Below, one piece after another: positions 3,528-47,884 of a stretch of DNA of 64,000 nt (position 1 is the first letter of the stretch; each line of letters opens with the position of its first letter). A program made the position numbers and the translations under genes. The DNA is taken from the NCBI GenBank assembly GCA_024036415.1, contig JAMWET010000026.1, positions 180,001-244,000 of the forward strand, read 5' to 3'. The DNA comes from Prochilodus magdalenae (lineage: Eukaryota; Chordata; Actinopteri; Characiformes; Prochilodontidae). The notes below the pieces were generated by a model. It saw only the letters and a list, made by a program, of their open reading frames with translations, was not told the DNA's origin and searched no databases.

Positions 3528-3541
3528 AGTTTCCATTTCCT
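3528..3541 (-). promoter_or_regulatory. ISRE of gene 1
   Basis: AGTTTCCATTTCCT; its reverse complement AGGAAATGGAAACT fits the interferon-stimulated response element RNGAAANNGAAACT at every fixed position. It lies 141 bp before the exon-1 donor. The same site stands at the equivalent place in genes 2, 3, 4 and 6. Binding by ISGF3/IRF factors is inferred from the motif only. Confidence 0.8.
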
Positions 3542-3682
3542 AGACTTTGCGTACTGTCCTGGAGCCACACCTCTTATCTTCACGGCCGCTAAATCACAGT
3601 GCAGTCCATCGCATTTTAAGAGCTACTTGAGGAACTTGAAGAACGAGTGCCACTCATCTACACACAGAAGGAACAACAATAG
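3542..3682 (+). other. Gene 1, exon 1 (5' UTR), approximate start
   Basis: This aligns with the first exons of genes 2 and 3: a GAGCCACACCTCTTAT block, then GAACGAGTGCCACTCATCTAC, ending ..CAATAG before the donor GTGTGT at 3683. The matching acceptor is ..TTCTTCAG at 4714, giving an intron of about 1.03 kb. The transcription start is not determined. In the frame of the downstream ATG this exon ends in a TAG stop, so it is untranslated. Confidence 0.6.
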
Positions 3683-4723
3683 GTGTGTATAGTGACTCGA
3701 ATTCATTGATCTGCTTTTATAAGTGGATAGAAGTTGGCGCAGACTGTATATTGTTATGTTGGGGATTAAACGTCTGTTCGGTTATGGGTTAGGTTTGAAT
3801 ATACATTTTTGATTTTGCTAGTTTTTGGTGTTCTGTGTTCCAGTGTAGTAGTTTAGCTTGTATGACTGTGGCGTAGTCGGTGGATGCTTCAAACTGGGCT
3901 CCCCTGTTTGGCGCCTTCCAATAGAACTTAAAACTTTTCCTGAAAATTTCCGTATGGCGCTAGTTAGCACTTTTCATGCCATTTAAGTTGTAACGACTTG
4001 AGAATCTTAACTTCTATGACGCTGAAGTGGTTATGCTACAACGCATTTCAAAAACTCATCTGGACACTCAATCTACACCTTCTAGTAGCCTTTTTAAGAA
4101 ATGCCGAAATGTCTTCTTGAAATAAGATTAGGACGCTGTTGAGAAGCCATCAGGCTCAGCTTCTTACCCTGTAAAGGAAGTGCAGTAGAATTTGAAATAT
4201 GCTTTGATATGATCAAACCTGCCAATCATAACCCAGTGAAAACCCAATACTAATATTCATAAAAACAAGAAATTCTGGTCCACACCACATATAAGGTGAG
4301 CACCATCTACTGTTTGGTAAGCCACAGGTACAACTAGGTGTGCGCCGGGTACTACGTGGTGAGCTTTTGTTAGCATCTATGTGTAGAGTAGCTGATACGG
4401 CGCCACCTAGCTGATATAGTGCTCTGTAAGATAACTTCACTAGAGACGGAAAAAGTTCTTCAGTAGGAACTCTTCATCTGCTGTAGTTTAGAATTTGTTG
4501 TTCTGAACTGAATAAATAAATATCTGAAAAATGTAAAAAACCCAACTACTAACCAACGATTGCTACATCATTGGAAAAGGAATCCTAAATCAATCGTGTT
4601 TTTTTATTTTTTTTATTTAGTTTATCGTGACTATCCAGTTTTATCCAGTATTTAAAGACTTGGTTTTGATTTTTTTGTCCTTCGGTTTCACTGATCTGTA
4701 TTTCTGTTCTTCAGAATCCCATC

Positions 4724-5344
4724 ATGGAGAAGCCCCTAAGCAAACTGTCCGAACTTAGAGACTCAGAGTTTGGGCAGCCATGTCCCCGGCATGGGCTCAA
4801 ACTGCTATACTGGTTTGCGCATGATTACGTTGACTTTGATGACTATGGCCAAATAGCCCCAAAGAACCCGAAGGCCACGCCTGAGACCGGAGCGTATGGG
4901 TTTCGTGAGTTCCACAACTCTCCAGTTAATGGTGCCTACCTCCTGCCCGAACAGAGCCTTCCATACTATAAAGTGGGGAATCTTAAACGCATGAGAAGAC
5001 GCATGAGAACCAAGTTGTGGTTGCCAAAGTATGTGAGGCAGGACTACAACGGAGGCCAATACAAACGCAACATGGACCGCAACAAGGACCGCATCATAGT
5101 GCGGTTGAATGCTGGCTATTTGGACATGGTGTACATTACTGAACACACTGATAAGATTAATTTCGGCCGAGCCCGTCAAATCAGCCCAGGTCTGATTAAA
5201 CACATTAGAAAGTTTAAGGCAGTTGAAGACTTTCTCCAAATGATGGAGGCTCCTCCGAACAAGAATCCAGTCGAACCTCCAAAGAAAACCAGCCAGGAAA
5301 AGAGACCACGGCCACCAAAGAATGACTGTTGTATCATTCTTTAG
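4724..5344 (+). CDS. Gene 1: PRHGL-YW family protein, CIIL prenylation box (206 aa)
   Basis: Intact single coding exon of a family I do not recognise. The acceptor (polypyrimidine tract then CAG at 4714) lies 9 nt before the ATG, the same spacing as in genes 2-5, which supports this start. Visible blocks: FGQPCPRHGLKLLYWFAHDY (residues 16-35), YGF (58-60), LPYYKVGNL (79-87), DRIIVRL (122-128), VYITEH (136-141) and EDFL (168-171). After VGNL, where relatives have a short N-x-PGA loop, this copy has the basic run KRMRRRMRTK (88-97). The tail is rich in Pro, Lys and Arg and ends CCIIL. By CaaX rules the terminal Leu predicts geranylgeranylation, and the extra Cys and basic tail favour stable membrane attachment. 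There is no signal peptide and no transmembrane segment. An ISRE upstream suggests interferon induction. Molecular function unknown. Confidence 0.88.
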   Translation: MEKPLSKLSELRDSEFGQPCPRHGLKLLYWFAHDYVDFDDYGQIAPKNPKATPETGAYGFREFHNSPVNGAYLLPEQSLPYYKVGNLKRMRRRMRTKLWLPKYVRQDYNGGQYKRNMDRNKDRIIVRLNAGYLDMVYITEHTDKINFGRARQISPGLIKHIRKFKAVEDFLQMMEAPPNKNPVEPPKKTSQEKRPRPPKNDCCIIL

Positions 5345-5544
5345 GTGTGCTATATCAAGGCAGACATAGTCTAGACAGAGTTCCCATCGGTTTGCCTTAC
5401 TAGGTGTAGCTTTCTCATTGTTCTTTTTTGATAAAGCCATTTCGAGTCATTGGTAGCTTGTATATTGCAACATACTTATAATTTCTAGATCATTGTTACT
5501 CCATGTGTTGGAGTAATACTTCAGTCGTGTTTTAAATTTGCTCA

Positions 5545-5550
5545 AATAAA
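5545..5550 (+). other. Poly(A) signal AATAAA of gene 1
   Basis: AATAAA within CTCAAATAAAAG, about 200 nt after the gene 1 stop. The same context recurs at the equivalent place after gene 3 (15,937), and as ATTAAA after gene 2 (11,020). Confidence 0.7.
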
Positions 5551-6429
5551 AGCTTGTTCTTTTCTCTTCTGCCACTTTATGATAGCATTTCTACTTGCTG
5601 GAGTTCTAAAACTCAGATGCGAAGGGGAAATGAAGACCGTTGTAAACACATCTTAAGTATCTCATTTACAGCCTATAGACTGAAGAGCTAAAGACATGTC
5701 CAGAGTTAGCTTCATATGTGTTGTGCCTGAGCACTGATGCTAATGAGGCTAACGGGTGATAGAAGGTTCACAGCTCATCAGTTAGCATCCATGTCTGAAT
5801 AACCACACCCAAATATTAGCAACAGTGTGTGGTTTAGGCATGCGCTAAGCTAACACAATGGGGTAGCTGCGTCCATTCATTGTTAGCTAATAACCACGCC
5901 CTTGTCTCAAATTTCAAATATTAGCAACAGTGGGTGGTTTAGGCATGCACTAAGCTAACACGATGGGCTTATATGGTGTTAACAGAGTGCAGCAGTGACT
6001 CCGGCAGGCCTGGCTATCCCGGTAAAAGCATAAATGGGCATAACTGTATGTGAGTATGGGGTTTATTGTCATTATATTTCTTATAATTCAAATTTAAAAC
6101 GAAACAAATATCGATGTTAGCATCAAGTAATTTGGGATCCCCCATTCCATTGACTACCTCAAACACACGATGGCTACCAAACACAGTGAAGAACCCAACA
6201 TTGCTGTCTTTATGTACAGAAAACAACAAGCTAGTGTTTCGGCTTTATTGAGTATTGAGTTTGAAATGTATGGGTAATTCTGTCATTCAGATTTTAGATG
6301 ATATAATTCATAGGTCGACGTGAGGTCGTTGTTTCAGATGGAAGACTTTTCCACTGCTCCATATGGACGCTTTGTAGAATAACTAGAACTATCATATTAC
6401 GTATGAGCTGACATAAAAGGTGGGTTTGT
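5551..6429. other. 3' flank of gene 1, duplicated unit
   Basis: No coding signal. It is homologous to the 3' flank of gene 2 (about 11,040-12,260), sharing blocks such as the GTTAGCTTC...GATGCTAATG.GGCTAACGGGT stretch and ACTACCTCAAACAC. Inside it, a segment of about 115 bp containing AAATATTAGCAACAGTG is present twice in tandem (about 5812-5862 and 5917-5970). Confidence 0.6.
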
Positions 6430-8240: not shown

Positions 8241-8254
8241 AGTTTCTGTTTCAG
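8241..8254 (-). promoter_or_regulatory. ISRE of gene 2
   Basis: AGTTTCTGTTTCAG; the reverse complement CTGAAACAGAAACT matches GAAANNGAAACT. The outermost base is C, not the usual A/G. It lies 138 bp before the exon-1 donor, matching gene 1 (141 bp) and gene 3 (131 bp). Confidence 0.75.
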
Positions 8255-8392: not shown

Positions 8393-9477
8393 GTAAGTAC
8401 ATTGATTCTAATTCATAGACTGGCTTTTCATAAGCTGTTATGAGTTAGCCCAGACAGTTTATTAATATTAGTGAGGCTACAAATTCCGATGAGTGTTAGT
8501 TATACCTGTAATAAATAGCGTTTGGATTCATGTAACTTGTATTTGCTGTTTTAACCATGATGGTGCTCTGGGTTCATGTGTACCAGTTCAGCTTGTATTG
8601 TTCTGGCATAGTTAAAAAGCTTATTCTCCCAGGTGGTTGTTAATAATTTGGTGCGTTATCAGCCATTTTTTTGCTGATCCCAATAAAACCATACCAGTAA
8701 TAAGCCATCAGAACTCCCGGTAACAACACGCGCCACATGCTGGACTATCCAGACTGCTGAACACCTGACACGCACATGTACACACATGTCTTGAACAGCC
8801 GCCTGTCTGTGTTTCTCCTGAGCACCTTACCTCAACTCACCACTGTCAGTTTACAGTTCCTACTACCCGGTGCAATAATACCAAGGCTTATTGGTCCAGT
8901 GTTTAAGGTATATAGTTCATAGTGTAATATTTACACCATGTTTATAATAATACCATGTTTATTATGATTGTCATGTGCAGTAACGCCACCATTGTGTACA
9001 ATGTACAGTATTCTCTATTTAACGTTCAGCATTAAAACGTTCCATATTCACTTTATTAGTCTGTCTATGCTGTCTAGTATGTCCACCTTGCCTTCTACAT
9101 GCACCTGCTTTATGGTATAGATGCGTATAGGAGGCTGAGGAACCGCAGTCTCGCTCAGCTGTGCACTACTTGTATGACGATATGAACTTGGACTTTGATA
9201 CTAGTGATACAGGTTGACTGATTAGCAAAGGTTAGCACTGTCCTTGTAAGAATGTTTTGGCTGTGACACACGTGAGCAAACGTTTGCTCTGCTGGAACAT
9301 ATTTGGATAGCTGATCTCGTAATGAAAGTATTTTTAAAAGCCTTAATGTTATTCGACCTGCACTACTGTTTATACTGGCACTGTCACACCCCCTTTAATC
9401 CCACGTCTTACTTCTGGTAGTGCACATGTCACTTTATCGTTCTTATTGTCTTCAGTGTCTCAAGGTCCTTATTTTAC

Positions 9478-10225: not shown

Positions 10226-10780
10226 ATGGTGAGAATTGACACCATAGATGATCTGTTCAAGCTTAAGGAATCTGAGTTTGGCCGGCCGCGTCCTCGCCAT
10301 GGACTCAACCTGTTGTACTGGTTTGCGCATGATTACGTGAACGTGAATTCGAATAACCGGATGGTCCCATTGGCCCACCCTAAGACTGGATTGTATGGGT
10401 TTCATATGTTCCACAACTTTCCACAAGCTAAAGGCGAGCGCCCCTTGCCCAGTCACAATCTTCCGTACTTTGAAGTGGGAAATCTCAATGCGCCAGGAGC
10501 AAATAGATTACCCCAGTACGTGATGCAGGACTTCACCCACCAGCGAGACGATAGTAACAAGGACCGGATCATAGTACGGATGAGAGGGGACGTTTTGGAA
10601 AAGGTGTACATTACTGAACACATCGACAAGACGGATTTTGGTCGAACCCATGAAATCAGCCAAGACCTACTTGCAACCATCAAGAATATGAAGAGAAAGG
10701 AATTCCTACAAAAGATGGAGCCTCCTCGGAACAACAACCCACTGCGGCCGAAGAATGGTTGTTGTTGTACCATTCTATAG
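10226..10780 (+). CDS. Gene 2: PRHGL-YW family protein, CTIL prenylation box (184 aa)
   Basis: Intact coding exon, shortest of the family. The ATG is 9 nt after the acceptor at 10,215-10,216. Blocks: FGRPRPRHGLNLLYWFAHDY (18-37), YGFHMFHN (57-64), LPYFEVGNLNAPGAN (79-93), NKDRIIVRM (111-119), VYITEH (127-132), FGRTHEIS (138-145) and EFLQKME (159-165). The tail ends CCCTIL (179-184). CTIL is a CaaX box with terminal Leu, predicting geranylgeranylation, with two further cysteines that could be palmitoylated. No signal peptide or hydrophobic segment. It is closest to gene 3 (shared NAPGAN loop and FGRTHEIS). Expression is probably interferon-inducible, judged from the ISRE upstream. Biochemical function unknown. 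Confidence 0.88.
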   Translation: MVRIDTIDDLFKLKESEFGRPRPRHGLNLLYWFAHDYVNVNSNNRMVPLAHPKTGLYGFHMFHNFPQAKGERPLPSHNLPYFEVGNLNAPGANRLPQYVMQDFTHQRDDSNKDRIIVRMRGDVLEKVYITEHIDKTDFGRTHEISQDLLATIKNMKRKEFLQKMEPPRNNNPLRPKNGCCCTIL

Positions 10781-13080: not shown

Positions 13081-13318
13081 TAGATACATTTCTTAAGAAT
13101 GTACAATCTTCAATAAAGATTTACAGGTTCGCAAATATAACAACAGTACATTCCGTTATTCTGTTAAAGAAAACAAAAAAAAGAAAAGAAAGAAAGTAAG
13201 AAAGAAAGAGAAAAGCTACAAATACCCACCCACACCACCCCCTCTCTCTAAACACCAAATATAGAGTTAGTATAGAGGTAAATTAAGTTGTACTGGTCAT
13301 TTCTTTCTTTCCTAACAG

Positions 13319-13566
13319 CATTAAGCATGGTCCAAACCTGAACCTGAACCGCCGAGAAACTCATTTTGGCCATCCCCATCCGAGACATGGACACAACCTC
13401 CTGTATTCGACTGTGTTGGACTTGAGATTGGAGGGATGACCATACAGTGCAGGCATGAAGATGTAGACCTTTACGTTCATAGGTTCTACAACAGAATTGA
13501 GGATGCTCGTCGTGACCTGCCATACTACGAGGTGCGAAATCTAAGTGAAGGGGCAAACAAATTAGC
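13319..13566 (+). pseudogene. Pseudogene A of the PRHGL-YW family
   Basis: The acceptor is kept (TTTCCTAACAG at 13,318) and an ATG lies 9 nt further on, but codon 5 is a stop (ATGGTCCAAACCTGA). Later parts of the family protein are readable in pieces: HFGHPHPRHGHNLLY, then a short deletion removing W-F-A, then DLPYYEVRNLSEGANK in another frame. The copy ends abruptly in a GCTA/GATA microsatellite, so the C-terminal half is missing. The second piece resembles the LPYYEVGNL block of genes 1-3. This is a dead copy truncated by microsatellite growth or a break at it. Confidence 0.85.
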
Positions 13567-13622
13567 TAGCTAGCTAGATAGATAGCTAGCTAGCTAGCTA
13601 GCTAGATAGATAGATAGGTAGG

Positions 13623-14354: not shown

Positions 14355-14368
14355 AGTTTCTATTTCCC
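14355..14368 (-). promoter_or_regulatory. ISRE of gene 3
   Basis: AGTTTCTATTTCCC; the reverse complement GGGAAATAGAAACT matches RNGAAANNGAAACT at all fixed positions. It sits 131 bp before the exon-1 donor. Confidence 0.8.
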
Positions 14369-15198: not shown

Positions 15199-15759
15199 AT
15201 GGTGGCGATTGACACTCTAAAGGAGCTACCCCAGCTTAAGGACTCTGGGTTTGGTCGGCCAAGTCCTCGGCATGGACTCACCCTGTTGTACTGGTTTGTC
15301 AACGATTGTGTGCACTTCAATGCTAATGGCCTGATGGTCCTACAGGATCACCCTAGGTCTAAAAAGTTCGGGTTTCATAGATTCCGCAACATCCAAGTTA
15401 ATGGTGACTACCCCCTGCCCAATGAGAACTTTCCATACTATGAAGTGGGAAATCTAAACGCCCCAGGAGCAAATGCATTACCCACATACGTGAGGAAGAA
15501 CTTCACCCTCAATCAAGATGGCAACAACAAGGACCGGATCATAGTACAGATGAGAGGTGACTTTTTGGACAAGGTGTACATCACTGAACACATCAACAGG
15601 AGAGATTTTGGCCGAACCCATGAAATCAGCAAAGATCTGATCACAACCATCAAGAATATGACAATAGAAGACTTCCTCCTAGAGATGGGGACTTTTGAGC
15701 GCAACAACCACAGCCAAACTGTTCCGCCCAAAAGGAGCTCCTGTTGTACCATTCTTTAG
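15199..15759 (+). CDS. Gene 3: PRHGL-YW family protein, CTIL prenylation box (186 aa)
   Basis: I chose the ATG at 15,199, not an upstream one at 15,106, because it is 9 nt after the acceptor (15,188-15,189), as in its paralogs, and the upstream part is intron. Blocks: FGRPSPRHGLTLLYWFVNDC (18-37), FGFHRFRN (57-64), FPYYEVGNLNAPGAN (78-92), NKDRIIVQM (110-118), VYITEHI (126-132), FGRTHEIS (137-144) and EDFLLEM (157-163). The tail ends KRSSCCTIL, a CaaX box preceded by another Cys and basic residues, predicting geranylgeranylation. No transmembrane segment. Closest relative in the window is gene 2. Regulation: ISRE upstream. Function unknown; a membrane-tethered antiviral role is inference. Confidence 0.88.
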   Translation: MVAIDTLKELPQLKDSGFGRPSPRHGLTLLYWFVNDCVHFNANGLMVLQDHPRSKKFGFHRFRNIQVNGDYPLPNENFPYYEVGNLNAPGANALPTYVRKNFTLNQDGNNKDRIIVQMRGDFLDKVYITEHINRRDFGRTHEISKDLITTIKNMTIEDFLLEMGTFERNNHSQTVPPKRSSCCTIL

Positions 15760-16457: not shown

Positions 16458-16713
16458 ATATCGGCGCTGTCCAAAGAAAAACAGGTTTCTCCAAAATGGC
16501 AACTTTACAGGAGAGGCCAAAAACCTGGCTGAGTGTGAATGGAAGTCAATGGAACCAGACATCTTTCCAAGCATGTTTTGGATATTTCTGGTGATCCATT
16601 CATCATGAAACGTCCACCCAATGTAAACAGCAGGTCATGTGACCAAATGATGCCAAAAACTAAAAATTTAACCAAATTGGAGATACATGGTTTTCATTGC
16701 ACAGCCACGATAT
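16458..16713. mobile_element. MITE copy 1 (about 250 bp, TIR type CGCTGTCCAAAGAAAAACA)
   Basis: The left end ATATCGGCGCTGTCC and the right end CACGATAT are inverted. Internally CAGGTTTCTCCAAAATGG faces GGAGATACATGGTTTTCATT. It shares its whole length with copies at 22,010, 40,592 and 55,039, with conserved centres GTCAATGGAACCAGA and TGTAAACAGCAG. Non-coding: a non-autonomous DNA transposon. Confidence 0.8.
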
Positions 16714-17040
16714 TTAGGTCACATACATGAACAGCCTAAAATGTTGAAACCCAACATTTTTTATATATATATATAAAATGGTTATATGTATAAAACTACC
16801 TAAACTGTAGGCCTGTTGTTCACTTGCTATCCAGGATCTACTATGAATCATTCAGTAATTACTGTGAAACCAAAACCAAAACAACAATCACTGCATTTCC
16901 AGTGATGCCAGTGATTCATGACGCAGTAGTGTTCAGTAATACAAAGCTGGGTTAGTACTCAACTATTGAAAATATTCCCAAGCACATTCTTCCATTCTCA
17001 AGTATTTACCGCTGAAGCCCTCAGGGTGCAGAAAAGTCCT

Positions 17041-17300
17041 GACTGCTTGTTCATTTCTGATCCAAACTGGTCCAGCTGCAAGACTGGGTATGGCCGTCCC
17101 CACCTGAGACACGTGTGCAACCTCCTGTACTGGCTTGCATATGACTGTTGAAACCTGAGAATGGGGGAAGGACCATAGAGTGCTGGAGTGAGGATGGAGA
17201 CTTTGGGTTTCACAGGTACTACAACAGAATGATGAAGGCAGACTCCTGCCATACATTGAGGTGGGAGATCTGAATGAGGGGGTCAACAAGTCAATCCTTG
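17041..17300 (+). pseudogene. Pseudogene B of the PRHGL-YW family
   Basis: Family blocks remain recognisable: GYGRPHLRHVCNLLYWLAYD followed by C and a stop, then in other frames GDFGFHRYYN and a decayed Y-x-EVGDLN. The central PRHG has become LRHV. Its upstream 60 bp (CTCAAGTATTTACCGC .. GTCCTGACTGCTTG) match the intron of pseudogene A, so both come from one duplication. It breaks into a 69-bp tandem array at about 17,273, and the C-terminal half is absent. Confidence 0.8.
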
Positions 17301-17617
17301 CTAGTAGCTACTGTCCACACTTCTTTGCTTGCGGCATTACCAATGAGGGGGTCAACAAGTCAATCCTCGCTACTACCTACTGTCCACCCTTCTCTGCTTG
17401 CGGCATTACCAATGAGGGGGTCAACAAGTCAATCCTCGCTAGTACCTACTGTCCACCCTTCTCTGCTTGCGGCATTACCAATGGGGGGGTCAACAAGTCA
17501 ATCCTCGCTACTACCTACTGTCCACCCTTCTCTGCTTGCGGCATTACCAATGAGGGGGTCAACAAGTCAATCCTCGCTAGTAGCTACTGTCCACCCTTCT
17601 GTGCTTGCAGCATTACC
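17273..17617. repeat. 69-bp tandem array, 5 copies, seeded in pseudogene B
   Basis: Exact 69-bp spacing (starts at 17,273, 17,342, 17,411, 17,480 and 17,549). Each copy begins AATGAGGGGGTCAACAAGTC. Since 69 = 3 x 23, the array is open in more than one frame and gives a 127-residue ORF with a 23-residue repeat (EGVNKSILATTYCPPFSACG). The first unit starts in the family's NL-x-E-G-x-N-K segment, so the array was copied out of pseudogene sequence. I see no start or splice context that would make it a gene. Confidence 0.9.
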
Positions 17618-17709
17618 AGCAAACTGATTGGCTCTTGTCCTTGAGGCAGCTGAACCCACCCTTTGATGAGCTAATGCTAAAGCTAACATAGAAGTTAGAA
17701 GTAGGACGC

Positions 17710-18245: not shown

Positions 18246-19356
18246 ACAATCCTGATAAGGCTGTACTGTGTAGAGGTATATCAGTAACCTCAGTAACCTC
18301 AGTAACAGTAACAACCCTTCACTGAACAGGGAATCTCTGACCGTCCCTTAGTGAACCTCAGGATAGCCACTCCTACCTCAGACTCAGGCTGGATCAGTTT
18401 CTGTTTCCTTGCTAGTGAGCTCTCTGGGGAAGTAGGCTGTGCCTGCTGCCTTCACACAGAGCTACTAAAACAACCACTGATTTGTAGAGCGTGTGGAACG
18501 GACCGCACACCCTCCAGTAGGTCTGAACTCTTCTCTCTTAACATAATTACATTAGACGCTAGATACGGTGGACTACATGTGTTGCACTTGAACTGGCTGG
18601 TGTTGCTTTGAGATTCCTGTTGCCACTTGCGTAACTCCTGGTGAGTTCATTTCCTGTTCAGTCGTGCCTATCTGGTGACAGAGTAATGGAAGTATGTCTT
18701 GGACATGTAGTTAAAGCTCGTCTACTCTGAGTGTAGAAGACCTCTAGTTCTTGTCCACTGTGCTTTACACTTCTGTCCATTACCCATGTTGGGCAATCCA
18801 ACCACAGACCTTCGTGTTGATGAGCCACAAGCCGACATCGCCAAACCACACGACCAGTCGTCATTATTATGATGTAAGAGAATCAAGAAGTCGAAAAGAA
18901 ATTTAAAAATGTAACCATAGAAACCGATTTCTAAGGCTTATACAAAGAGAAATCCCGCCATCTTTGACAGCAGAGGTTGGGATGGAACCCCCGACCTTCC
19001 TATCCGAAGGTGAGCGTGATAGTGGTGATAGTGGTCAACCAAAAATTGCTCCCTAGTGTTACTGGTTGAGGCCGCAGTGCATGATGGATGGTGGATGTAC
19101 ACCATCAAGATAGCTCCACCAGTGCACTGGAGTAGAGCACCATCTACACCGGGTATCTTCAGTGCACTACAGTCTTGATTCAGTATGCCAACACTACGCA
19201 GCATGCCATTTCGAATACGGCGCCACGCCTCGCTCTATAGCGCCACCATCAGGCCAAGCAGTGTTGTTTTTGCTGCATGGCGAGATCTTCGTACAAAATG
19301 AGTTATAGCCCCGTTTACCACATTTGCCGCTTGACGTGAAGGTTCTTGTGTCTTTA
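18246..19356. other. Intergenic, no gene seen
   Basis: No family coding block and no RNA gene. At about 18,960-19,000 GTTGGGATGGAACCCCCGAC looks like the reverse of a tRNA-type B box and could be a worn SINE head. Confidence 0.4.
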
Positions 19357-19370
19357 AGTTTCTGTTTCTC
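19357..19370 (-). promoter_or_regulatory. ISRE of gene 4
   Basis: AGTTTCTGTTTCTC; the reverse complement GAGAAACAGAAACT matches RNGAAANNGAAACT. It is followed by AGGCATTACCCCACCCCACC and exon 1. The equivalent promoter of gene 5 has the same surroundings but a decayed site. Confidence 0.8.
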
Positions 19371-19483
19371 AGGCATTACCCCACCCCACCTCACCCTTAC
19401 GTGTTTATTTCCTCAAAGCAGCAGACAGGAAATAATCGATCTCACCCAGCACGTCTAAAAATCTCTCATCTTTCTCTTACAAG
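19371..19483 (+). other. Gene 4, exon 1 (5' UTR), approximate start
   Basis: Homologous to gene 5 exon 1 (CCTCAAAGCAG.AGACAGG..; CCCAGCACGTC; CTCTTACAAG|GTACAGT). Donor at 19,484, acceptor TCCTACTTAG at 19,880, intron about 0.4 kb. An in-frame TAA lies just before the ATG, so this exon is untranslated. Confidence 0.65.
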
Positions 19484-19889
19484 GTACAGTATAGGTTACG
19501 GCTTTTCATAGCGCTTGCAAGTTGCTTTTATCTGCACATGTACGTGTTTGTCTTTGTTTTATGAGCTGCTGAACACAGTCGTATGGGTGTCTCCCTATTA
19601 GAACGTCCACATGAATTAGGCCATGCTTCCTATAAATGATATCTCAATGAGGTACTGGTATGCTTGTGCTTGAGTTGATACGCTGATGCTGAAACTGCCA
19701 TGATATGTTTATGCATTAAGCCAAAACTGCACCAAGTTTCAGCCAATGAAAAACATCATATGGTTTCACCAACTGTTATGAACGGGAGATGGAAGTTTGT
19801 GTATGAGACATTATGAATGCTGCTTCAGAGGTCACTGAGTAAAGCAAACGTCTGTATGCTATGTGTTCTCTCCTACTTAGGGATAAACC

Positions 19890-20591
19890 ATGGTGAGAAT
19901 TGTTTGTCTGAACACTCTGGCTGAGCTTCGGGACTCCGGGTATGGTCAGCCATATCCCAGACACGGACTCAAGCTCTTGTACTGGTTTGCTAAAGAATGC
20001 GTCCAAGTCTACAACAACCAACTGATGGCACTCTGCAACCCCTCTCATGGTGACTTTGGTTTCCGACCATTCCAGAACAATGACCGGCTTCTTCCCGCTA
20101 CGAGCATGGCCTACTACGAGGTGGGCAACTTGAATGATTACAATGACAGCTGCTTGCTGCCTGAATATGTTAGCGAAGGATTCACTGGCTACTCTGACGA
20201 GAGCAATACGGATCGCATCATCGTCTGCCTTGATTCAAACTGGTTCGACAGCGTCTACGTCACGTGCCACAAGACCCAACGGACTTTTGACCGTAACCAA
20301 ACTTACAGCATTGATTCACAACTCATAAGAACCATCAGAAAGATGGAGCGAAATGATTTCCTCAGATCAGTCTACATACCCATCAGACTTCAGTCCAAAC
20401 CTCAGTCCAAACCTCAGAGCAAACCTCAGAGCGCACCTCAGAGCGCACCTCAGAGCGCTTTAATATCCAGTCAAAATCAAAACAAAGAGAAACCAAGAAA
20501 CGAGGAGAAATCCTGTTGTGAAATCTTTCTTTTGGTGTTTGTTGCAGTAATAATGCTTTTACTATGGCTAAGCTATATTACTAAGCATTAA
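19890..20591 (+). CDS. Gene 4: PRHGL-YW family protein with C-terminal tail anchor (233 aa)
   Basis: The ATG is 9 nt after the acceptor. Blocks: YGQPYPRHGLKLLYWFAKEC (18-37), GDFGFRPF (54-61), YYEVGNLNDYNDS (75-87), SNTDRIIVCL (105-114), VYVTCHKTQ (122-130) and NDFL (155-158). Residues 168-190 hold a QSKP/QSAP repeat. Then come Lys/Glu-rich residues, KSCC (207-210) and the hydrophobic stretch EIFLLVFVAVIMLLLWLSYI (211-230), with only TKH after it. This is the arrangement of a tail-anchored membrane protein with its domain in the cytosol. The CC pair lies where gene 3 has CCTIL-stop, so the anchor looks like an extension past the old CaaX stop, or the CaaX form a truncation. Closest relative is gene 5. 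Its promoter has a perfect ISRE. Function unknown. Confidence 0.88.
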   Translation: MVRIVCLNTLAELRDSGYGQPYPRHGLKLLYWFAKECVQVYNNQLMALCNPSHGDFGFRPFQNNDRLLPATSMAYYEVGNLNDYNDSCLLPEYVSEGFTGYSDESNTDRIIVCLDSNWFDSVYVTCHKTQRTFDRNQTYSIDSQLIRTIRKMERNDFLRSVYIPIRLQSKPQSKPQSKPQSAPQSAPQSALISSQNQNKEKPRNEEKSCCEIFLLVFVAVIMLLLWLSYITKH

Positions 20592-22009: not shown

Positions 22010-22265
22010 ATATCGTCACTGTACAAAGAAAAACAAGTATCTCCAAAATGGTAGCTTTATAGGAGAGGGCAAAAACCTGATTTGACTGTACTGGAAGTCA
22101 ATGGAACCAGACTTTTTTCCAAGCAATTTTGGACTAGTTCTGTTGGTCCATTTATCATATCATTGTCACACAGTGTAAACAGCAGCTGATGTGTTCAAAT
22201 GATGCATAAAAGTAAAAATGTACAGAAATGGAGATACATGTTTTTCATTGGACAGCGATGCTATG
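22010..22265. mobile_element. MITE copy 2
   Basis: Ends ATATCGTCACTGTACAAAG and CATTGGACAGCGATGCTAT are inverted. It is collinear with copy 1 at 16,458, including the GGAAGTCAATGGAACCAGAC centre. Confidence 0.8.
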
Positions 22266-27600: not shown

Positions 27601-27862
27601 TAAGAGAGGCTGTGTTTTAGCTTTGAGCTAAGAGAGGCTGTGTGTTTAGCTTTGAGCTAAGAGAGGCTGTGTGTTTAGCTTTGAGCTAAGAGAGGCTGTG
27701 TGTTTAGCTTTGAGCTAAGAGAGACTGTGTGTGTTTAGCTTTGAGCTAAGAGAGGCTGTGTGTTTAGCTTTGAGCTAAGAGAGGCTGTGTGTTTAGGTTT
27801 GAGCTAAAAGAGGCTGTGTGTTTAGCTTTGAGCTAAGAGGGGCTGTGTTTTTATCTTTGAGT
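24620..27862. repeat. 29-bp satellite array, about 3.2 kb, over 100 units
   Basis: Head-to-tail units TTTAGCTTTGAGCTAAGAGA + GGCTGTGTG. Most are identical. Variants GAGACT, GAGAAACT and TTTTTAG recur, and a few units are broken (near 25,905, 26,440, 27,210 and 27,430). Each unit holds the small inverted repeat TAGCtttGAGCTA. Stop triplets in the TAGC and TGAG/CTAA steps block long frames on the + strand. No gene. Confidence 0.97.
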
Positions 27863-31299: not shown

Positions 31300-31720
31300 A
31301 CTAGGTTTATCCAGACTGGGTCTACCCCATCAGATTTTGGTTCTTTTTATTTTTATAAAATGTGAGCTGTGTGAAATTCTCAAAGCAATCATCTAACATT
31401 ACTTCATTACGTTTATGCTGTAGTATCTTAATAGAGACTCAAGTGTTCTTACATGGTGTACATGTATATGGATCATTAACATACCGTACATAATGGAGTA
31501 TTAAACATGTAGGTGTGGTGGTGAATCTTGCAGTGACACTGTATAGTGGACCTGTAATGTAGGGTTCTAATAAAATAGTCTGAGAGCAGACGAACAAAAG
31601 GGGTTTCTAATAAAGTGGCCAGTGAGCGGAGGTGAGTTTTGATAGGAGTACATAAGTGCTTGTTTATTAGTTGTGTTGTCAAGTCAATCAATGTTGCCAT
31701 GTTACCTAAGGCCCTCCTGT
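31300..31720. other. Upstream region of gene 5
   Basis: No coding signal. GGTTTCTAATAAAGTGGCCA at about 31,600 resembles the end of a common fish MITE. Confidence 0.4.
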
Positions 31721-31725
31721 CTTTA

Positions 31726-31739
31726 TGGTTCTGCTCCTC
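31726..31739 (-). promoter_or_regulatory. Decayed ISRE of gene 5
   Basis: TGGTTCTGCTCCTC occupies the exact position of AGTTTCTGTTTCTC in gene 4. Flanks TTTA..ATTACCCCA are shared. Both GAAA half-sites are hit by T-to-G or T-to-C changes. A TATA-like ATTTATACCC is kept just downstream. Gene 5 probably lost direct ISRE control. Confidence 0.65.
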
Positions 31740-31857
31740 GGACATTACCCCATCTCACCTCACCCCGCCCTCCCTCATTTATACCCTCAAAGCAGAAGAC
31801 AGGGATTAGTCAGTCTCGCCCAGCACGTCAAAGAATCGCTCATCCTACTCTTACAAG
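31740..31857 (+). other. Gene 5, exon 1 (5' UTR), approximate start
   Basis: Homologous to gene 4 exon 1; ends CTCTTACAAG|GTACAGT (donor at 31,858). Acceptor TTGTTTTCTTAG at 33,392, intron about 1.5 kb. Confidence 0.65.
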
Positions 31858-32271
31858 GTACAGTATGGGCTATAGCTTCTCATAGCGCCTGCAGTTACCT
31901 CAGTTTCACATGTATGTGTTTTTCTTTCAGTTATTTTATATGATAATTCGATTTATATGGTTCTTTACTTTTGTAATTGTTTAATTCAGATCTTGATTGT
32001 AGGAAAAAAACAGTTGGTCAATGCGGTATCAGTCTAAGCTCTGGGCATTTGAGTAAATGTATGCTCTACATAATGATGAGGATCATTTGTTTTAATCGGC
32101 TGAGATTGAAAGAAACAATATTGAATTATGATTTTATTCGTTTCTACAACAAAGTAAATAAATTTACAGTAATGAAAAAAAAAACATAATACTATAATGC
32201 TCACAGAAAATGCAGCAGGGTCATTATCATTACAATATATAATATGTTTTGTTTTATTTTATATTTATATC

Positions 32272-33401: not shown

Positions 33402-34052
33402 ATGGTGAGAATCCGGTGTCTGAACACTCTGTCCGAGCTTCGGGACTCCGGGTACGGTCAGCCATACCCAAGACATGGACTCAAGCTCTTGTACTGGTTG
33501 GCCACAGAATGCGTTCAAGTCTACGACGACCAAATGATGGCAAGCTGGAGGCCCTTTAACGGTAACTTTGGCTTCCGACCGTTCGTGGACAATGATGGGC
33601 TTCTTCCCGCTACCAGCTTGTCCTACTACGAGGTGGGCAACTTGGATGACTACAATGCCAGCCAGCTGCCTGAATATGTGAGGGAAGATTACTCCGCCAA
33701 GGTTGACAACAGCAACATGGATCGCATCATCGTCTGCCTTAATTCCGTCTGGTTCGACAGCGTCTACGTCACGTGCCAGAAGACCCAGTGGACCTTTGAC
33801 GAGAAGCAAACCTACCGCATTGGTCCGCAACTGATAAGCGCCATCAGGAGGATGGAGCGGAAAGACTTCCTCAGACCAGATACAGGCCACCACCACCCCA
33901 GGCCCCAGAGCGCCGCGCTATCCACTCAACAGTCAGAAAGCTGGAAAGACTTCTTTGCTGCAGCCTGTATATTTTTGGTAGTCTTTATTATTGGGCTTTG
34001 TAGCATCGCCTTGCTAATTCTTCTAATATGGGTAATCATTTCTCAGAAATAA
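33402..34052 (+). CDS. Gene 5: PRHGL-YW family protein with C-terminal tail anchor (216 aa)
   Basis: The ATG is 9 nt after the acceptor. The N-terminal half is very close to gene 4: YGQPYPRHGLKLLYWLATEC (18-37), GNFGFRPF (54-61), YYEVGNLDDYNAS (75-87), SNMDRIIVCL (104-113), VYVTCQKTQ (121-129) and KDFLRP (154-159). The tail is different. It has HHH and Pro-rich residues, WKDFF (181-185), and the hydrophobic segment AAACIFLVVFIIGLCSIALL (186-205) continuing to residue 213, then SQK. There is no QSKP repeat and no CC pair. It reads as a tail-anchored membrane protein with the conserved domain in the cytosol. No convincing poly(A) signal within 300 nt. Its promoter matches gene 4's, but the ISRE is decayed, so regulation may differ. 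Function unknown. Confidence 0.86.
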   Translation: MVRIRCLNTLSELRDSGYGQPYPRHGLKLLYWLATECVQVYDDQMMASWRPFNGNFGFRPFVDNDGLLPATSLSYYEVGNLDDYNASQLPEYVREDYSAKVDNSNMDRIIVCLNSVWFDSVYVTCQKTQWTFDEKQTYRIGPQLISAIRRMERKDFLRPDTGHHHPRPQSAALSTQQSESWKDFFAAACIFLVVFIIGLCSIALLILLIWVIISQK

Positions 34053-37654: not shown

Positions 37655-39968
37655 TTAGTGTTGAGTATATATACTGTGTAGTGCTAAGTATATATACTGG
37701 TAGTGTTGAGTATATTACTGTGTAGTGCAGAGTGTATATATACTGTGTAGTGTTGAGTATATATGCAGTGTGTTGTTGAGTATATATACTGTGTAGTGTT
37801 GAGTATATATACTGTGTAGTGCTGTGTGTATATATACTGTATAGTGTTGAGTATATATACTGTGCATTACTGAGTGTATATATAGTGTGTAGTGCTAAGT
37901 GTATATATACTGTGTAGTGTTGAGTATATATACAGTGTGGTATTGAGTATGTATACTGTGTAGTGTTGAGTATATATACATTGTGGTGTTGAGTGTATAT
38001 ATACTGTATAGTGTTGAGTATATATACTGTGCAGTACTGAGTGTATATATAGTGTGTAGTGCTAAGTGTATATATACTGTGTAGTGTTGAGTATATATAC
38101 AGTGTGGTATTGAGTATGTATACTGTGTAGTGTTGAGTATATATACATTGTGGTGTTGAGTGTATATATACTGTGTAGTGTTGAGTATATATACAGTGTA
38201 GTGCTGAGTGTATATACTGTGTGTTGTTGAGCATATATACTCTGTGTTGTTGAGCATATATACAGTGTGGTGTTGAGTGTATATATACTGTGTAGTGTTA
38301 AGTATATATACAGTGTAGTGCTGAGTCTATATACTGTGTGTTGTTGAGCATATATACAGTGTGGTGTTGAGTGTATATATACTGTGTATTGTTGAGTATA
38401 TATACTGTGTAGTTTTGAGTATATATACTGTGTAGTGTTGAGTGTATATATACTGTGCAGTACTGAGTGTATATATAGTGTGTAGTGCTAAGTGTATATA
38501 TACTGTGTAGTGTTAAGGGTATATATACTGTGAAGTGTTGAGTGTATATATACTGTGTAGTTTTGAGTATGTATACTGTGTAGTTTTGAGTATTTATACT
38601 GTGTAGTGTTGAGTATATATACTGTGTGTTGTTGAGCATATATACAGTGTGGTGTTGAGTGTATACACTGTGTAGTGTTGAGTATATATACTGTGCAGTA
38701 CTGAGCGTATATATAGTGTGTAGTGCTAAGTGTATATATACTGTGTAGTGTTGAGTATATATACAGTGCAGTACTGAGTGTATATATAGTGTGTAGTGCT
38801 AAGTGTATATATACTGTGTAGTGTTAAGGGTATATATACTGTGAAGTGTTGAGTGTATATATACTGTGTAGTGTTGAGTATATATACTGTGTAGTGCTGA
38901 GTGTATATACAGTGTAGTGTTGAGTATATATACTGTGTAGTGTTGAGTGTATATATACTGTGTAGTGTTGAGTATGTATACTGTGTAGTGTTGAGTATTT
39001 ATACTGTGTAGTGTTGAGTATATATACTGTGTGTTGTTGAGCATATATACAGTGTGGTGTTGAGTGTATACACTGTGTAGTGTTGAGTATATATACTGTG
39101 CAGTACTGAGTGTATATATAGTGTGTAGTGCTAAGTGTATATATACTGTGTAGTGTTGAGTATATATATACTGTGCAGTACTGAGTGTATATATAGTGTG
39201 TAGTGCTAAGTGTATATATACTGTGTAGTGTTAAGGGTATATATACTGTGAAGTGTTAAATGTGTATATATACTGTGTAGTGTTGAGTATATATACTGTG
39301 TAGTGCTGAGTGTATATACTGTGTAGTGTTAAGGGTATATATACTGTGAAGTGTTGAATGTATATATACTGTGTAGTTTTGAGTATGTATACTGTGTAGT
39401 GTTGAGTATGTATACTGTGCAGTACTGAGTGTGTAGTGCTTGAGTAATGTATACTGTGTAGTAATATGTTGTAGTGTTGATTTATATACTGTGTAGTGTT
39501 GAGTGTATATACAGTGTGTTGAGTGTTGTTGTTGAGTGCATATATACAGTGTTGGTGTTGAGTGTAGTTATAGTATTTATACTGTGTAGCGTTGAGTATA
39601 TATACTGTGTGTTGTTTGAGCATATATACAGTACTGTGAGTGTATATACTAGTGTGTTGAGTATATATACTGTGCTAAGTGTATATATAGTGTATATATT
39701 GTGTAGTGTTATGTAGCGTTGAGTGTATATATAGTGTGCAGTACTGAGTGTATATATATACTGTGTAGTGTTAAGGGTATATATACTGTGAAGTGTTGAG
39801 TATATATACTGTGTAGTGCTGAGTGTATATACAGTGTAGTGTTGAGTATATATACTGTGAAGTGTTGAGTGTATATACTGTGTGGTGTTGAGTATATATA
39901 CTGTGTGGTGTTGAGTATATATACTGTGGCGTTGAGTATATATACAGTTTAGTGTTGAGTATATTGCT
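37655..39968. repeat. 23-25 bp TA-rich minisatellite, about 2.3 kb
   Basis: Nearly 100 units built on TGTGTAGTGTTGAGTATATA + TAC, with 23-, 24- and 25-bp length forms. Longer multi-unit blocks (for example CAGTACTGAGTGTATATATA .. GTGCTAAGTG) recur, so there is higher-order structure. The long minus-strand frames (Y/I/T/H/S/Q rich) are a by-product of the repeat and not proteins. Confidence 0.95.
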
Positions 39969-40037: not shown

Positions 40038-40051
40038 AGTTTCAGTTTCCT
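40038..40051 (-). promoter_or_regulatory. ISRE of gene 6
   Basis: AGTTTCAGTTTCCT; the reverse complement AGGAAACTGAAACT matches RNGAAANNGAAACT exactly. Flanks CACTCCCCC.. and ..CTAGCTAGTGCTCTC are shared with the orphan promoter at 47,871. Confidence 0.82.
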
Positions 40052-40078
40052 AGCTAGTGCTCTCGCTTCCTCCCTCCC

Positions 40079-40110
<32 letters not shown>

Positions 40111-40591: not shown

Positions 40592-40836
40592 CATCGCTGT
40601 CCAATGAAAAACATGTGTCTCCATTTTTGTCCAAATTTACTTTTATGCATAATTTGACCACAGCAGCTGCTGTTTACACTGTGTGAAGATCTCATGATAA
40701 ACTGACCAACAGAAATGGCCCAAAAGTTCTTGGAAAGACGTCTGGTTCCATTGACTGCTATTGAAGTCAAATGAGGTTTTTATCCTGCCCTGTAAACTTG
40801 CCATTTTGGAGATACAGGTTTTTCTTTGGACAGTGA
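40592..40836. mobile_element. MITE copy 3, in the gene 6 intron
   Basis: CATCGCTGTCCAATGAAAAA at one end and TTTTTCTTTGGACAGTGA at the other. Opposite orientation to copies 1 and 2. Confidence 0.8.
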
Positions 40837-41845
40837 AGTTAAACAGTCCAGCTCGGTGTTAATCAGTAGCATGAAATCAGCCTGCTAATCTTCATGGTCT
40901 TTGGCCAAGGTAATTGTATACTTGCATATATGGACGTGAGTTCAGTGTAGGCCTTTCTTCGTTAAGGGAAGCCCAGATAGACCTATAAACACAGGAGCAG
41001 CTTCCACATACTCTGTCCTTTGCTCTTTACCGGTTCATCAACCTTCGGTAAATATTGATAAACAAGCTGATGAAAACAGAACGAATGACGAGTTCATCCC
41101 ATCACAGTCGTCCAAACGTCCTGAATGATACGCTTGTGGTTTAGGGGACTTTGAGCGCCAAGCTCAGTTTTTCACACTTGGCTACAGAATCGAGACTGAA
41201 ACCAAAACACTGCGTCAAGCAGGAGGATTTCCTGTCAGCGGTGTTCGGATGTTCGTCCGGTTATCTGTGTGCTATCTACACATTGAAGTCAAAGTGAACA
41301 TTGTTGTCTTTGAGAGTGTGCAAGTAGACTGCGGTTCTGCAGACTCGCATACGCAAATATAACATTAGAACAACAGGTCGACATACTAGAGCGCATAGAC
41401 AGACCAAGAAGAGGAGTGTGGGACATTTTTAGTGTTGAATGTTTGTTGGTTGTACGCAGTGGCGGCTTTACTGCACAAGATAAGCATAATAAACATGGTG
41501 TTAATGTGAGCACTGTAATCAGTGTGAACATTGTACTGTTAACTGTATCGGTGGTGGTATCTCCAGAATGGCAGCCTTACCATTGTTGGATATCAGTGTT
41601 TTTGTATAAGTGTGTATGTATAAAGGGTGTATAAGGTCACCATGTGGGAATGAGTGCATTCAGAACCTGAATTGTATGCATTTACGACGGGGTCCGAGCC
41701 CCTGGGAGAATGCCATCAGGGCTCTACAGGTTATAGGTCAGAAGCAATTTGGAGATAAGCTGACCCATCTGGTCAAACCAGACACATTACATTTAGTGTG
41801 TAGTGACACAGTGTATGAAAGCTCTGTGACAAGGTTCTGTCTTTG
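40837..41845. other. Gene 6 intron, unique part
   Basis: No coding exon of the family and no splice-bounded frame that I can support. Confidence 0.5.
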
Positions 41846-41849
41846 GGCT

Positions 41850-42830
41850 GAGTTGGACTGAGTTGGGCTGAGGTTGGGCTAAGGTTGGTCTGAGTTGGTC
41901 TGAGTTGGACTGAGTCGGACTGAGTTGGGCTGAGTCGGACTGAGTTGGGGTGAGTCGGACTGAGTTGGGCTGGGTCGGAATGAGTCGGGCTAAGGTTGGG
42001 CTGAGTTGGGTTGAGTTGGGCTGAGTTGGGCTGAGTTGGGCTGAGCTGGACTGAGTTGGGCTGAGTTGGGCTAAGGTTGAGCTGAGTTGGGCTAAGGTTG
42101 GACTGAGTTGGACTGAGTTGGACTGATTTGGGCTGAGGTTGGGCTAAGGTTGGTCTGAGTTGGGCTGAGTCAGACTGAGTCGGACTGAGTTGGACTGAGT
42201 TGGGCTGAGTTGGGCTAAGGTTGGTCTGAGTTGGGCTGAGTCAGACTGAGTCGGACTGAGTTGGACTGAGTTGGGCTGAGTTGGGCTAAGGTTGGGCTGA
42301 GTTGGACTGAGCTGGGCTGAGCTGGGGCTGAGGTTGGGCTGAGGTTGGTCTGAGTCGGGCTGAGTTGGGCTGAGTCGGACTGAGTTGGACTGAGTCATTG
42401 GCATGTCTCGTGATTTCAAAGCTACCCACCAAGTTTCATCCCATTGGTTGAGTTGGGCTGAGTCGGACTGAGTCGGGCTGAGTTGGGCTAAGGTTGTTCT
42501 GAGTTGGTCTGAGTCGGACTGAGTTGGGCTAAAGTTGGGCTGAGTTGGACTGAGTTGGACTGAGTTTGGCTGAGTTGGACTGAGTTGGACTGAGCTGGGC
42601 TGAGTTGGGGCTGAGGTTGGGCTGAGGTTGGTCTGAGTTGGTCTGAGTCGGACTGAATTGGACTGAGTTGGGCTAAGGTTGGGCTGAGTTGGACTGAGTT
42701 GGGCTGAGTTGGACTAAGCTGGGCTGAGTTGGGGCTGAGGTTGGTCTGAGTTGGGCTGAGTCGGACTGAGTCATTGTCATGTCTCGTGATTTCAAAGCTA
42801 CCCACCAAGTTTCATCCCATTGGTTGATTC
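41850..42830. repeat. 10-bp array (GAGTTGGGCT)n in two blocks with a duplicated spacer
   Basis: Decamer GAGTTGGGCT and variants (GAGTCGGACT, GAGGTTGGGCTAAG) fill 41,850-42,392 and 42,450-42,765. Each block ends in the same spacer of about 65 bp (GTCTCGTGATTTCAAAGCTA .. TTTCATCCCATTGGTTGA), at 42,393-42,450 and 42,770-42,827. Block plus spacer was duplicated as one unit. The minus-strand frames rich in Q/P/S/N/L are artefacts. Confidence 0.93.
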
Positions 42831-42959: not shown

Positions 42960-43667
42960 ATGCCCAAAATCAAGACGCTGAACGAACTGGCCCACCTGGA
43001 GGTGACCAGATTTGGTCGGCCCTATCCGAGGCACGGCCTCAAACTGCTGTACTGGTTCGCCCAAGACTGCGTCTCCTTCAGTCAGTACATCATGCTTTCA
43101 GAGTGTGATCCGGAGAGCGGAGACTTCGGGTTCCACCTCTTTGAGAACAGATACGACAGAAACGGCGTTAAACTCCTGCCTGATGTGGACATCCCCTATT
43201 ACGTGGTGGGCAATCTGAACTCGCCAGGAGCGGATGAGCTGCCCAGTTACGTCTGCGAAGACTACACCGGCCACCTGGATAACAGCAACATGGACCGTGT
43301 GATTGTGAGCCTTGATAATGAGATGTTTGACCGAGTGTATGTGACTGAGCATGACGACCGCTCAAACTACAACCCCGACGCTACCTACCGCATCAGCAAG
43401 GGCCTCCTCAAGGCTATCAGGAACCTGACGTTAGAGGGCTTTCTCATGCAGACTGGATACAGGGGACGCTCAGACTACATATTTCAAGGTGTTGTTATAA
43501 ACCTCAACCCGAACGTTGTGACTCCAGCTGTCAGACCTCCAAGGAACTGGGATTATCGTATCGAGATACCGGAGCCTGAACCAGTGACTGACAGCAACGA
43601 TTGGGTCACCACTGGATACTCATCTGGGACGGAGAGAAGCACATGTTGTCCGTGTACCATACTGTAG
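42960..43667 (+). CDS. Gene 6: PRHGL-YW family protein, CTIL prenylation box (235 aa)
   Basis: Longest copy. The ATG is 12 nt after the acceptor (9 in the others). Blocks: RFGRPYPRHGLKLLYWFAQD (17-36), GDFGFHLFEN (54-63), IPYYVVGNLNSPGADELP (78-95), DNSNMDRVIVSL (107-118), VYVTEHDDRSNY (127-138) and TYRISKGLL (142-150). A tail of about 70 residues follows, with a Pro/Glu stretch (EIPEPEPV, 202-209), ending STCCPCTIL. CTIL is a CaaX box with terminal Leu (geranylgeranylation predicted), with two more cysteines nearby that could be palmitoylated. Base composition is more GC-rich than in genes 1-3. It combines features of both subgroups: a CaaX end, and a VYVT strand with N-[MT]-DR as in genes 4 and 5. 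A perfect ISRE lies upstream. Function unknown. Confidence 0.88.
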   Translation: MPKIKTLNELAHLEVTRFGRPYPRHGLKLLYWFAQDCVSFSQYIMLSECDPESGDFGFHLFENRYDRNGVKLLPDVDIPYYVVGNLNSPGADELPSYVCEDYTGHLDNSNMDRVIVSLDNEMFDRVYVTEHDDRSNYNPDATYRISKGLLKAIRNLTLEGFLMQTGYRGRSDYIFQGVVINLNPNVVTPAVRPPRNWDYRIEIPEPEPVTDSNDWVTTGYSSGTERSTCCPCTIL

Positions 43668-44485: not shown

Positions 44486-44487
44486 GA

Positions 44488-44716: not shown

Positions 44717-44759
44717 CATCAGCTAAAAAAATCGGCTAAAAAAAATAAAAATTTCTTTC

Positions 44760-44945: not shown

Positions 44946-44971
44946 TGTGGGCCTATATAAGGTATAGTACC

Positions 44972-46750: not shown

Positions 46751-46751
46751 T

Positions 46752-46958
46752 TTACGACATTTAGCTGACGCTCTTATCCAGAGCGACTTACAAGGTTAAT
46801 GATTACAGGAAGGCCCAGTGTAGTGTTAGGAGTCTTGCCCGAGGACTCTTATTGGTGTAGCTCAGCATAGTCACCCAGACTGGGATTCGAACCTCAGTCT
46901 CCCACATGTAGAGGTAGCACCCTGAGTGGTGGTATTACCCACTGAGCTACACCAACCA
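46752..46958 (-). mobile_element. tRNA-derived SINE (HAmo/HE1-like)
   Basis: On the minus strand the head reads GGTGTAGCTCAGTGGGTAA (A box) with GAGGTTCGAATCCCAGTC (B box), then the body, and the tail TTGTAAGTCGCTCTGGATAA .. GCGTCAGCTAAATGTCG. Further copies at 57,998, 58,726 and 61,492. Confidence 0.85.
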
Positions 46959-47259
46959 CATACAGCCTTTGCCCGGTGTAATATCCGGCCTGGTCTAATT
47001 AGTCGGAATTCCAAATACGTCCCATACAAGTGGTTTGTCATCGGATCCAAATGAAAAATGGTGGACCCAAGCTTTGTTCCTGTCTGCTTCTAGGGGAAAT
47101 ACTGTTTTGGATGTAACGACTAATACCATTGTTCTATACTTCGCTTTCCCTCCCGATTGCGGTGCTGTTGGAAAGGAAGATAAAGGTCACCAGGATCAAT
47201 AACTGATGATACATTTAAACTCATATGATCAATATTTATTGAGCTACACATACAGAAGT

Positions 47260-47560
47260 CTGTCTCTCAGGTCTTCTGGACGTGTGACAACAAGCCGTTC
47301 ATCTTGGCGCTGACCACGGTGCCTCCACACACGGATACGTTGGCCGTCTCCACCAAGAGTAAAGCAGGACTCTTCACTGAAGATGACCCGCTACCATTTT
47401 GAGTCACTCCATGACAGTCTGGCACGACACCACTGCAGTCCTTGGTGACGCTGACATGGTGTTAAGCCCAGTCGTCATAACGGTCTGCGTGCATGTAGCC
47501 CAGGCTGACTTCTGGAGGACATCACTGCGATAAGCCCCGTCCTTGCTTACGGCCGAGCCT
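47260..47560 (-). mobile_element. Tc1/IS630-type transposase remnant
   Basis: The minus strand reads RVIFSEESCFTLGGDGQRIR .. RHRGQRQDERL, the segment around the second catalytic Asp of the DDE domain (normally F-x-DE-S-R-F). Here the Asp is Glu, the Arg is Cys and a stop lies two codons upstream, so it is inactive. Same family as 17,960-18,245. Confidence 0.75.
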
Positions 47561-47870
47561 CAAACACTGACTCATAAGCATGTCTCACCATGTCAAACCT
47601 ACTCACCAAGTTTCATTCCAGTCGGCTTCTGGGTTCAGAATACAGTGCACAGGCGACCATTAAGAATAGCTGTACAAGAACTACGTACCTATGTACCATC
47701 CAGTACCGAGTCCACCTCTCCACGCCAGGCATCCCAGAATTTCCCAGTAGAGTTTCCCAGTTGAGGGGCTGTGCATGTGCTGCCTCCCAGTCTGGAACTT
47801 GGATTCACCATTGTAATGCATGTGAGGGCTGTGTTAACCGTACCCAGGAAAAGTCACTCCCCCATTCATA

Positions 47871-47884
47871 AGTTTCTGTTTCCT
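47871..47884 (-). promoter_or_regulatory. Orphan ISRE
   Basis: AGTTTCTGTTTCCT; the reverse complement AGGAAACAGAAACT matches RNGAAANNGAAACT exactly. It is the duplicate of the gene 6 ISRE with the same flanks (CACTCCCCC..; CTAGCTAGTGCTCTC). Confidence 0.82.

Follow-up and report, generated by a model that had tools for sequence, protein, structure and literature searches.

Gig1, PANTHER family PTHR38706, is a known interferon-stimulated family of fish. In Atlantic salmon, three gig1-like genes lie in tandem in the Ssa03 cluster, each with an exon 1 of 98-136 bp and an open reading frame (ORF) of 222-240 amino acids (aa) in exon 2, and in work with poly(I:C), exon 1 of copies one and three, but not of copy two, coincided with ATAC and H3K27ac peaks (PMC12247413). 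Among the genes responding in infected sole, gig1 had the highest fold change (PMC8621919), and Gig1 was induced over 1000-fold in carp skin (PMC8842664). Gig2, also induced by interferon in fish, came from the same screen (PMC4337036). In this study, we focused on a 64-kb stretch of DNA from Prochilodus magdalenae (64,000 nt; hereafter the window, numbered from its first letter as position 1). It holds a cluster of six related genes, A to F, most of them preceded by an interferon-stimulated response element (ISRE). We favour, with reasonably good confidence, the reading that this is an ISRE-driven tandem cluster of membrane-anchored Gig1 proteins with a barnase fold.

The exact ISRE sequence, AGTTTCNNTTTC, occurs seven times in the window, always on the + strand, whereas shuffling expects 0.20 and none of 100 shuffles attained seven. 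Five of the sites precede exon-1 donors of paralogs, one precedes an orphan exon 1 and one lies inside a promoter relic. In the lines below, distances run from the start of the ISRE to the donor GT, and exon donors and acceptors here and later are predictions read from the sequence.

3528..3539, + strand: ISRE of gene A, donor GT at 3683 (155 bp).
8241..8252, + strand: ISRE of gene B, donor GT at 8393 (152 bp).
14355..14366, + strand: ISRE of gene C, donor GT at 14500 (145 bp).
18396..18407, + strand: seventh exact ISRE, in a 33-bp F/orphan promoter relic (18,393-18,425) that is 88% identical to the orphan.
19357..19368, + strand: ISRE of gene D, donor GT at 19484 (127 bp).
40038..40049, + strand: ISRE of gene F, donor GT at 40237 (199 bp).
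47871..47882, + strand: ISRE of the orphan F-type exon 1 (exon 1 at 47834-48109), donor GT at 48029 (158 bp).

A previous sequence-only reading had named six ISREs in constant orientation (3528, 8241, 14355, 19357, 40038 and 47871). Each of them is exact and the orientation extends to all seven, but the list lacked the site at 18396, and the spacing it gave, 110-190 bp, has to be corrected to 127-199 bp. No F-type donor was found downstream of the site at 18396. When one mismatch was allowed, 13 ISRE-like sites were counted against 6.37 expected, and 3 of 100 shuffles were as high. This excess is weak, and the signal is therefore confined to the perfect sites. Closely 3' of the ISRE, (TC)n pyrimidine runs are present in exon 1 of F (40066-40100) and in the orphan exon 1 (47893-47942). 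A microsatellite is described in salmon gig1-like exon 1, and its length is tied to disease susceptibility (PMC12247413).

The shuffle count overstates the independence of the sites because the gene copies are duplicates. The ISREs might be passive passengers of duplication that serve no function. The conservation of the site among genes A, B and C is a fairer test than the count. In their alignment, none of the 10 fixed ISRE positions varies, whereas the three genes agree at 136 of the 308 remaining gap-free columns (44%; 40/122 upstream and 96/186 downstream of the ISRE). If the columns are taken as independent, the chance of ten conserved positions is roughly 0.44^10 = 2.8e-4. In addition, the paralog groups A/B/C, D/E and F are at or near silent-site saturation, and the ISRE is nonetheless retained in all three. 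Synonymous divergence (dS) across the groups was not computable for seven of the 11 pairs and exceeded 4 for two, the remaining values being 2.30 (C/E) and 1.85 (E/F). Within groups, the ratio of nonsynonymous to synonymous divergence (dN/dS) of the core domain was 0.43-0.56, which indicates constrained but fast evolution. By blastn, sequence 5' of A, B, C and D matched its own group only, apart from one match of dispersed type in the B intron region. For F, 30 of its 72 blastn matches were listed; its match to the orphan comes from a separate comparison. The decay of the site in gene E and the two exact ISREs with no family coding sequence behind them would fit passive passage. However, conservation above the flanks in A/B/C and retention in three strongly diverged groups, with upstream matches only within each group, make this explanation very improbable. 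Judged from the sequence, the ISREs are in all likelihood functional.

Gene E has an exon 1 that aligns with that of D, and in it the ISRE can still be placed.

31718..31927, + strand: gene E exon-1 region, with 77% identity to D 19349-19555 and donor GT at 31858.
31726-31737, + strand: decayed ISRE of gene E, with 4 of the 10 fixed positions different from D.

The identity between E and D runs from just 5' of the ISRE to past the donor. An ISRE close to the predicted exon 1 and better conserved than its flanks was found in five of the six genes, in agreement with the earlier claim of five paralogs and one orphan copy. E is the only paralog with a decayed ISRE, and it is also the only copy in which a putative catalytic His is changed (to Gln).

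The cluster consists of six intact copies, two pseudogene relics, the orphan promoter with its exon 1 and the short promoter relic. All six genes have the same predicted structure, with an exon-1 donor, an acceptor 9-12 nt 5' of the ATG and the entire ORF in exon 2. The ORFs encode 184-235 aa. Glu, Arg and His in the following lines are the putative catalytic residues that are weighed below.

4724..5344, + strand: coding sequence of gene A (Gig1-like, 206 aa), CaaX end CIIL, Glu changed to Lys, exon 2 from about 4715.
10226..10780, + strand: coding sequence of gene B (184 aa), CaaX end CTIL, Glu/Arg/His complete.
13287..13570, + strand: Gig1-like pseudogene relic 1, in two frames, detected by hmmsearch, tblastn and translation.
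15199..15759, + strand: coding sequence of gene C (186 aa), CaaX end CTIL, Glu/Arg/His complete, heads AlphaFold model 1.
16930..17270, + strand: Gig1-like pseudogene relic 2, adjoining a 69-bp tandem array at 17273-17618.
19890..20591, + strand: coding sequence of gene D (233 aa), C-terminal hydrophobic (transmembrane) segment, Glu/Arg/His complete, heads AlphaFold model 2 (first 167 aa).
33402..34052, + strand: coding sequence of gene E (216 aa), C-terminal hydrophobic segment, His changed to Gln.
42960..43667, + strand: coding sequence of gene F (235 aa), CaaX end CTIL, Glu changed to Val.

The orphan exon 1 (47,871 region) is 83% and 72% identical to exon 1 of F over two stretches. No family coding sequence was found by hmmsearch and tblastn in the window beyond 43,667, including downstream of the orphan exon 1.

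The family to which these genes belong is very probably Gig1, because of the two-exon layout together with a motif encoded by a Gig1 primer. Tandem copies, a short exon 1 followed by an ORF-bearing exon 2, protein size, the interferon-type promoter and, in the salmon primer, the GNLN motif are shared with teleost Gig1 (salmon, crucian and grass carp), although the cluster here is larger than that of salmon, with six intact copies and relics versus three copies. The Gig1 sequence compared was one published salmon primer pair (PMC3552842). Its forward primer encodes GNLNPE, and GNLN is one of 14 tetrapeptides (4-mers) present in at least four of the six proteins. A conserved 4-mer was encoded by none of the 24 other primers in the table of that paper (12 genes; 18S and the virus pair excluded) and by 273 of 200,000 shuffled primer pairs. 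The 4-mer test followed after the result of a looser, free-placement primer score was known. That score ranked Gig1 first of 13 pairs, but with placements that were not the expected ones, and it was equalled in 29 of 1000 shuffles. The genes could instead form a separate interferon-stimulated family. The primer evidence amounts to one tetrapeptide, and the reverse primer has no conserved 4-mer. On the other hand, layout, protein size, tandem arrangement and primer motif all fit Gig1, and we consider a separate family quite improbable. The sequence-only reading had proposed an interferon-stimulated cluster built from an unrecognised family. The sequence lends good support to such a cluster, while "unrecognised" is probably wrong, given the layout and the primer motif. 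That reading had itself named gig1 and gig2 as examples of interferon-induced fish families, and it saw no gig2/PARP-like pattern. Gig2 is PARP-like, and in contrast none of the six proteins had a PARP match in Pfam at E values up to 10. No relative turned up when IMG/VR and GTDB contigs were scanned by pattern, and the family peptides were absent from the open-access literature searched.

The C-termini divide the paralogs. Those of A (CIIL) and of B, C and F (CTIL) are CaaX motifs, each with extra cysteines immediately before it, and a CaaX motif with Leu as X predicts geranylgeranylation. CaaX is absent from D and E. Their sequence instead leads, from the columns where Cys and Ile align, into one hydrophobic segment that stops 3 (D) and 7 (E) residues short of the C-terminus. 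The best 19-residue hydropathy was 2.91 in D and 3.28 in E, compared with less than 1 in the other four. A comparison of the 3' regions of D and E with those of the CaaX genes gave no convincing match. These C-termini predict, with a high degree of likelihood, that the products are membrane-anchored. Among mammalian products of interferon-stimulated genes, OAS1 p46, GBPs and ZAP-L are prenylated. Their domains are unrelated to the one described here, and the present family differs further in that two paralogs have a transmembrane tail instead.

The fold of the shared domain was computed from two AlphaFold models, headed by C and D and both derived from the same six paralogs. The models suggest that the domain probably adopts the barnase/ribonuclease (RNase) Sa/RNase T1 fold. 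In both, RNase Sa2 gave the best structural alignment, followed among the RNases by barnase. RNase Sa2 was covered almost fully, and identity in the structural match list was 16-24% in rows 1-24 compared with 5-12% in five non-RNase rows. The family resembles RNase Sa, barnase and RNase T1 (PF00545) in predicted fold, strand order and possible equivalents of Glu, Arg and His. It differs from them in that it falls below all profile thresholds, carries CaaX or transmembrane tails and has an incomplete triad in three of six copies. Several results count against this assignment. The structural alignment scores of both models were middling, a Foldseek search against viral models gave no match at E <= 0.001 (best 0.25), and PF00545 (microbial ribonuclease N1/T1) matched none of the six proteins in the Pfam search; a fragment of RNase Sa matches that profile with 73.8 bits. 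Sequence searches of the family against Pfam, NCBIfam, PADLOC and PDB gave nothing informative. The Orf78 and DUF6548 matches of D were rejected because they lie over the hydrophobic tail, as was a Tox-ART-HYE1 match in B, which was under the threshold (E 0.19). Conceivably, the domain has an alpha+beta fold of no relation to these RNases, in which case RNase Sa and barnase came out on top merely as small, similarly arranged and over-represented structures. We regard this as unlikely since the two models, headed by paralogs 46% identical to each other, yield the same top family, with near-full coverage of RNase Sa2 and the gap in identity between RNase and non-RNase rows. An hhalign profile comparison, in which the score exceeded those of all 300 shuffles and of the reversed profile, supports the RNase fold weakly and likewise argues against an unrelated one.

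A putative active site can be placed on the barnase-like fold. By strand position, the candidate triad is the Glu of YYE, the Arg of DRI and the His of VY.TEH, which would correspond to Glu73, Arg87 and His102 of barnase. The placement was made by eye and from hhalign alignments. In the first alignment set, at low threshold, Arg and His were matched and Glu was off by one residue. Because the residue matches are uneven, the fold is more likely than RNase activity. The Arg is invariant in all six copies, the Glu is kept in B, C, D and E (Lys in A, Val in F), and the His is kept in all copies but E. The triad is complete in three of the six (B, C and D), with one residue missing in each of A, E and F. 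The second alignment set matched Arg and not His. It is possible, though we would not call it probable from the sequence, that one or more copies are active RNases. It is also quite possible, at somewhat less than an even chance, that these proteins are pseudo-enzymes with an RNase fold. On membranes, they would bind either RNA or a partner protein and so stop viral replication without cutting RNA. The substitutions in A, F and E fit this explanation, as do the lack of an RNase match at the sequence level and the position of the longest six-way invariant block, PRHGL.LLYW, which lies at a helix start in the models and is inferred to have no known catalytic counterpart in barnase. The joint presence of Glu, Arg and His in B, C and D, the invariant Arg and the His kept in five of six copies speak against it.

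Taken with the preferred reading of the locus, these features suggest how the genes might work. Interferon signalling, through STAT1/STAT2/IRF9 or through IRFs directly, would act on the ISRE just 5' of the short non-coding exon 1. Exon 1 would then be spliced to exon 2 with its complete ORF, giving a two-exon mRNA. The small, cytosol-facing products would sit on membranes through a CaaX lipid (A, B, C and F) or a C-terminal transmembrane tail (D and E), and the RNase-fold domain would probably act there on RNA in the cytosol, by cutting or binding. In grass carp, Gig1 is induced by reovirus and not by recombinant interferon (review PMC4337036), so IRF-driven, interferon-independent use of the ISRE is possible. 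Gig1 is reported to suppress reovirus in cell culture (Sun et al. 2014, Virology, the original Gig1 paper, as cited in PMC8621919). In salmon, more gig1-like expression accompanied lower resistance (PMC12247413).

Repeats are found throughout the window. Long tandem arrays lie between D and E (24624-27861, unit about 29 bp), just 5' of F (37656-39964, about 23 bp), in the F intron (41843-42771, about 10 bp) and 3' of the orphan exon 1 (49031-49558, about 4 bp). These arrays may serve as a substrate for changes in copy number. Copies of a dispersed repeat, each about 250 bp long, lying in either orientation and about 77-87% alike, occur at 16458-16672, 22010-22260, 40592-40841 and 55039-55255. 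The 3' element of an UnaL2 long interspersed nuclear element (Rfam RF00436) lies at 46751-46804 on the - strand. A single open frame of 638 aa (52889-54802, + strand) is perhaps similar to a retroviral envelope. None of its Pfam matches was notable (best E 0.049), and a PDB search yielded none (best E 1.9). We make no claim that the orphan exon 1 drives this frame.

The cluster is a member of a known family, and the predicted fold and anchors are what is new here. Beyond the sequence-only reading, we add the decayed ISRE of E, both pseudogene relics, the two types of C-terminus (CaaX and transmembrane) and the computed barnase-like fold. No description of an RNase fold or of anchors in Gig1 was found in the open-access literature searched, outside which most subscription journals lie. 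The main text of PMC12247413 does not contain ribonuclease, RNase, prenyl, CaaX, transmembrane or barnase, and Gig1 was absent from the 10 listed of 3,010 open-access papers on prenylation; the one paper with both gig1 and prenyl is fungal. Three papers contain gig1 together with "ribonuclease", and in one of them, PMC4337036, the word refers to Dicer. Barnase/BECR domains were found together with vertebrate or interferon terms in two papers, on toxin and HEPN domains.

Gig1-like genes are the top candidates at a quantitative trait locus for pancreas-disease resistance in salmon, and are called not thoroughly studied (PMC12247413). Fold and anchors together would suggest a mode of action for this little-understood fish defence family, and the barnase-like fold would bring a bacterial-type RNase fold among vertebrate interferon effectors. 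As a tentative proposal, Gig1 proteins may be interferon-induced, membrane-tethered RNases of barnase/RNase T1 type, in which anchor-swapping paralogs patrol different membranes, while catalysis or the interferon switch has been lost from certain copies. If this is true, they would be a vertebrate antiviral effector class of bacterial/fungal RNase type, of which no description was found in the open-access literature searched. A lipid in some paralogs and a transmembrane tail in others would occupy one aligned position at the C-terminus, and the different anchors would mean different membranes of RNA-virus replication. The cluster itself offers natural contrasts in one copy without an ISRE, copies that lack a catalytic residue and two types of anchor.

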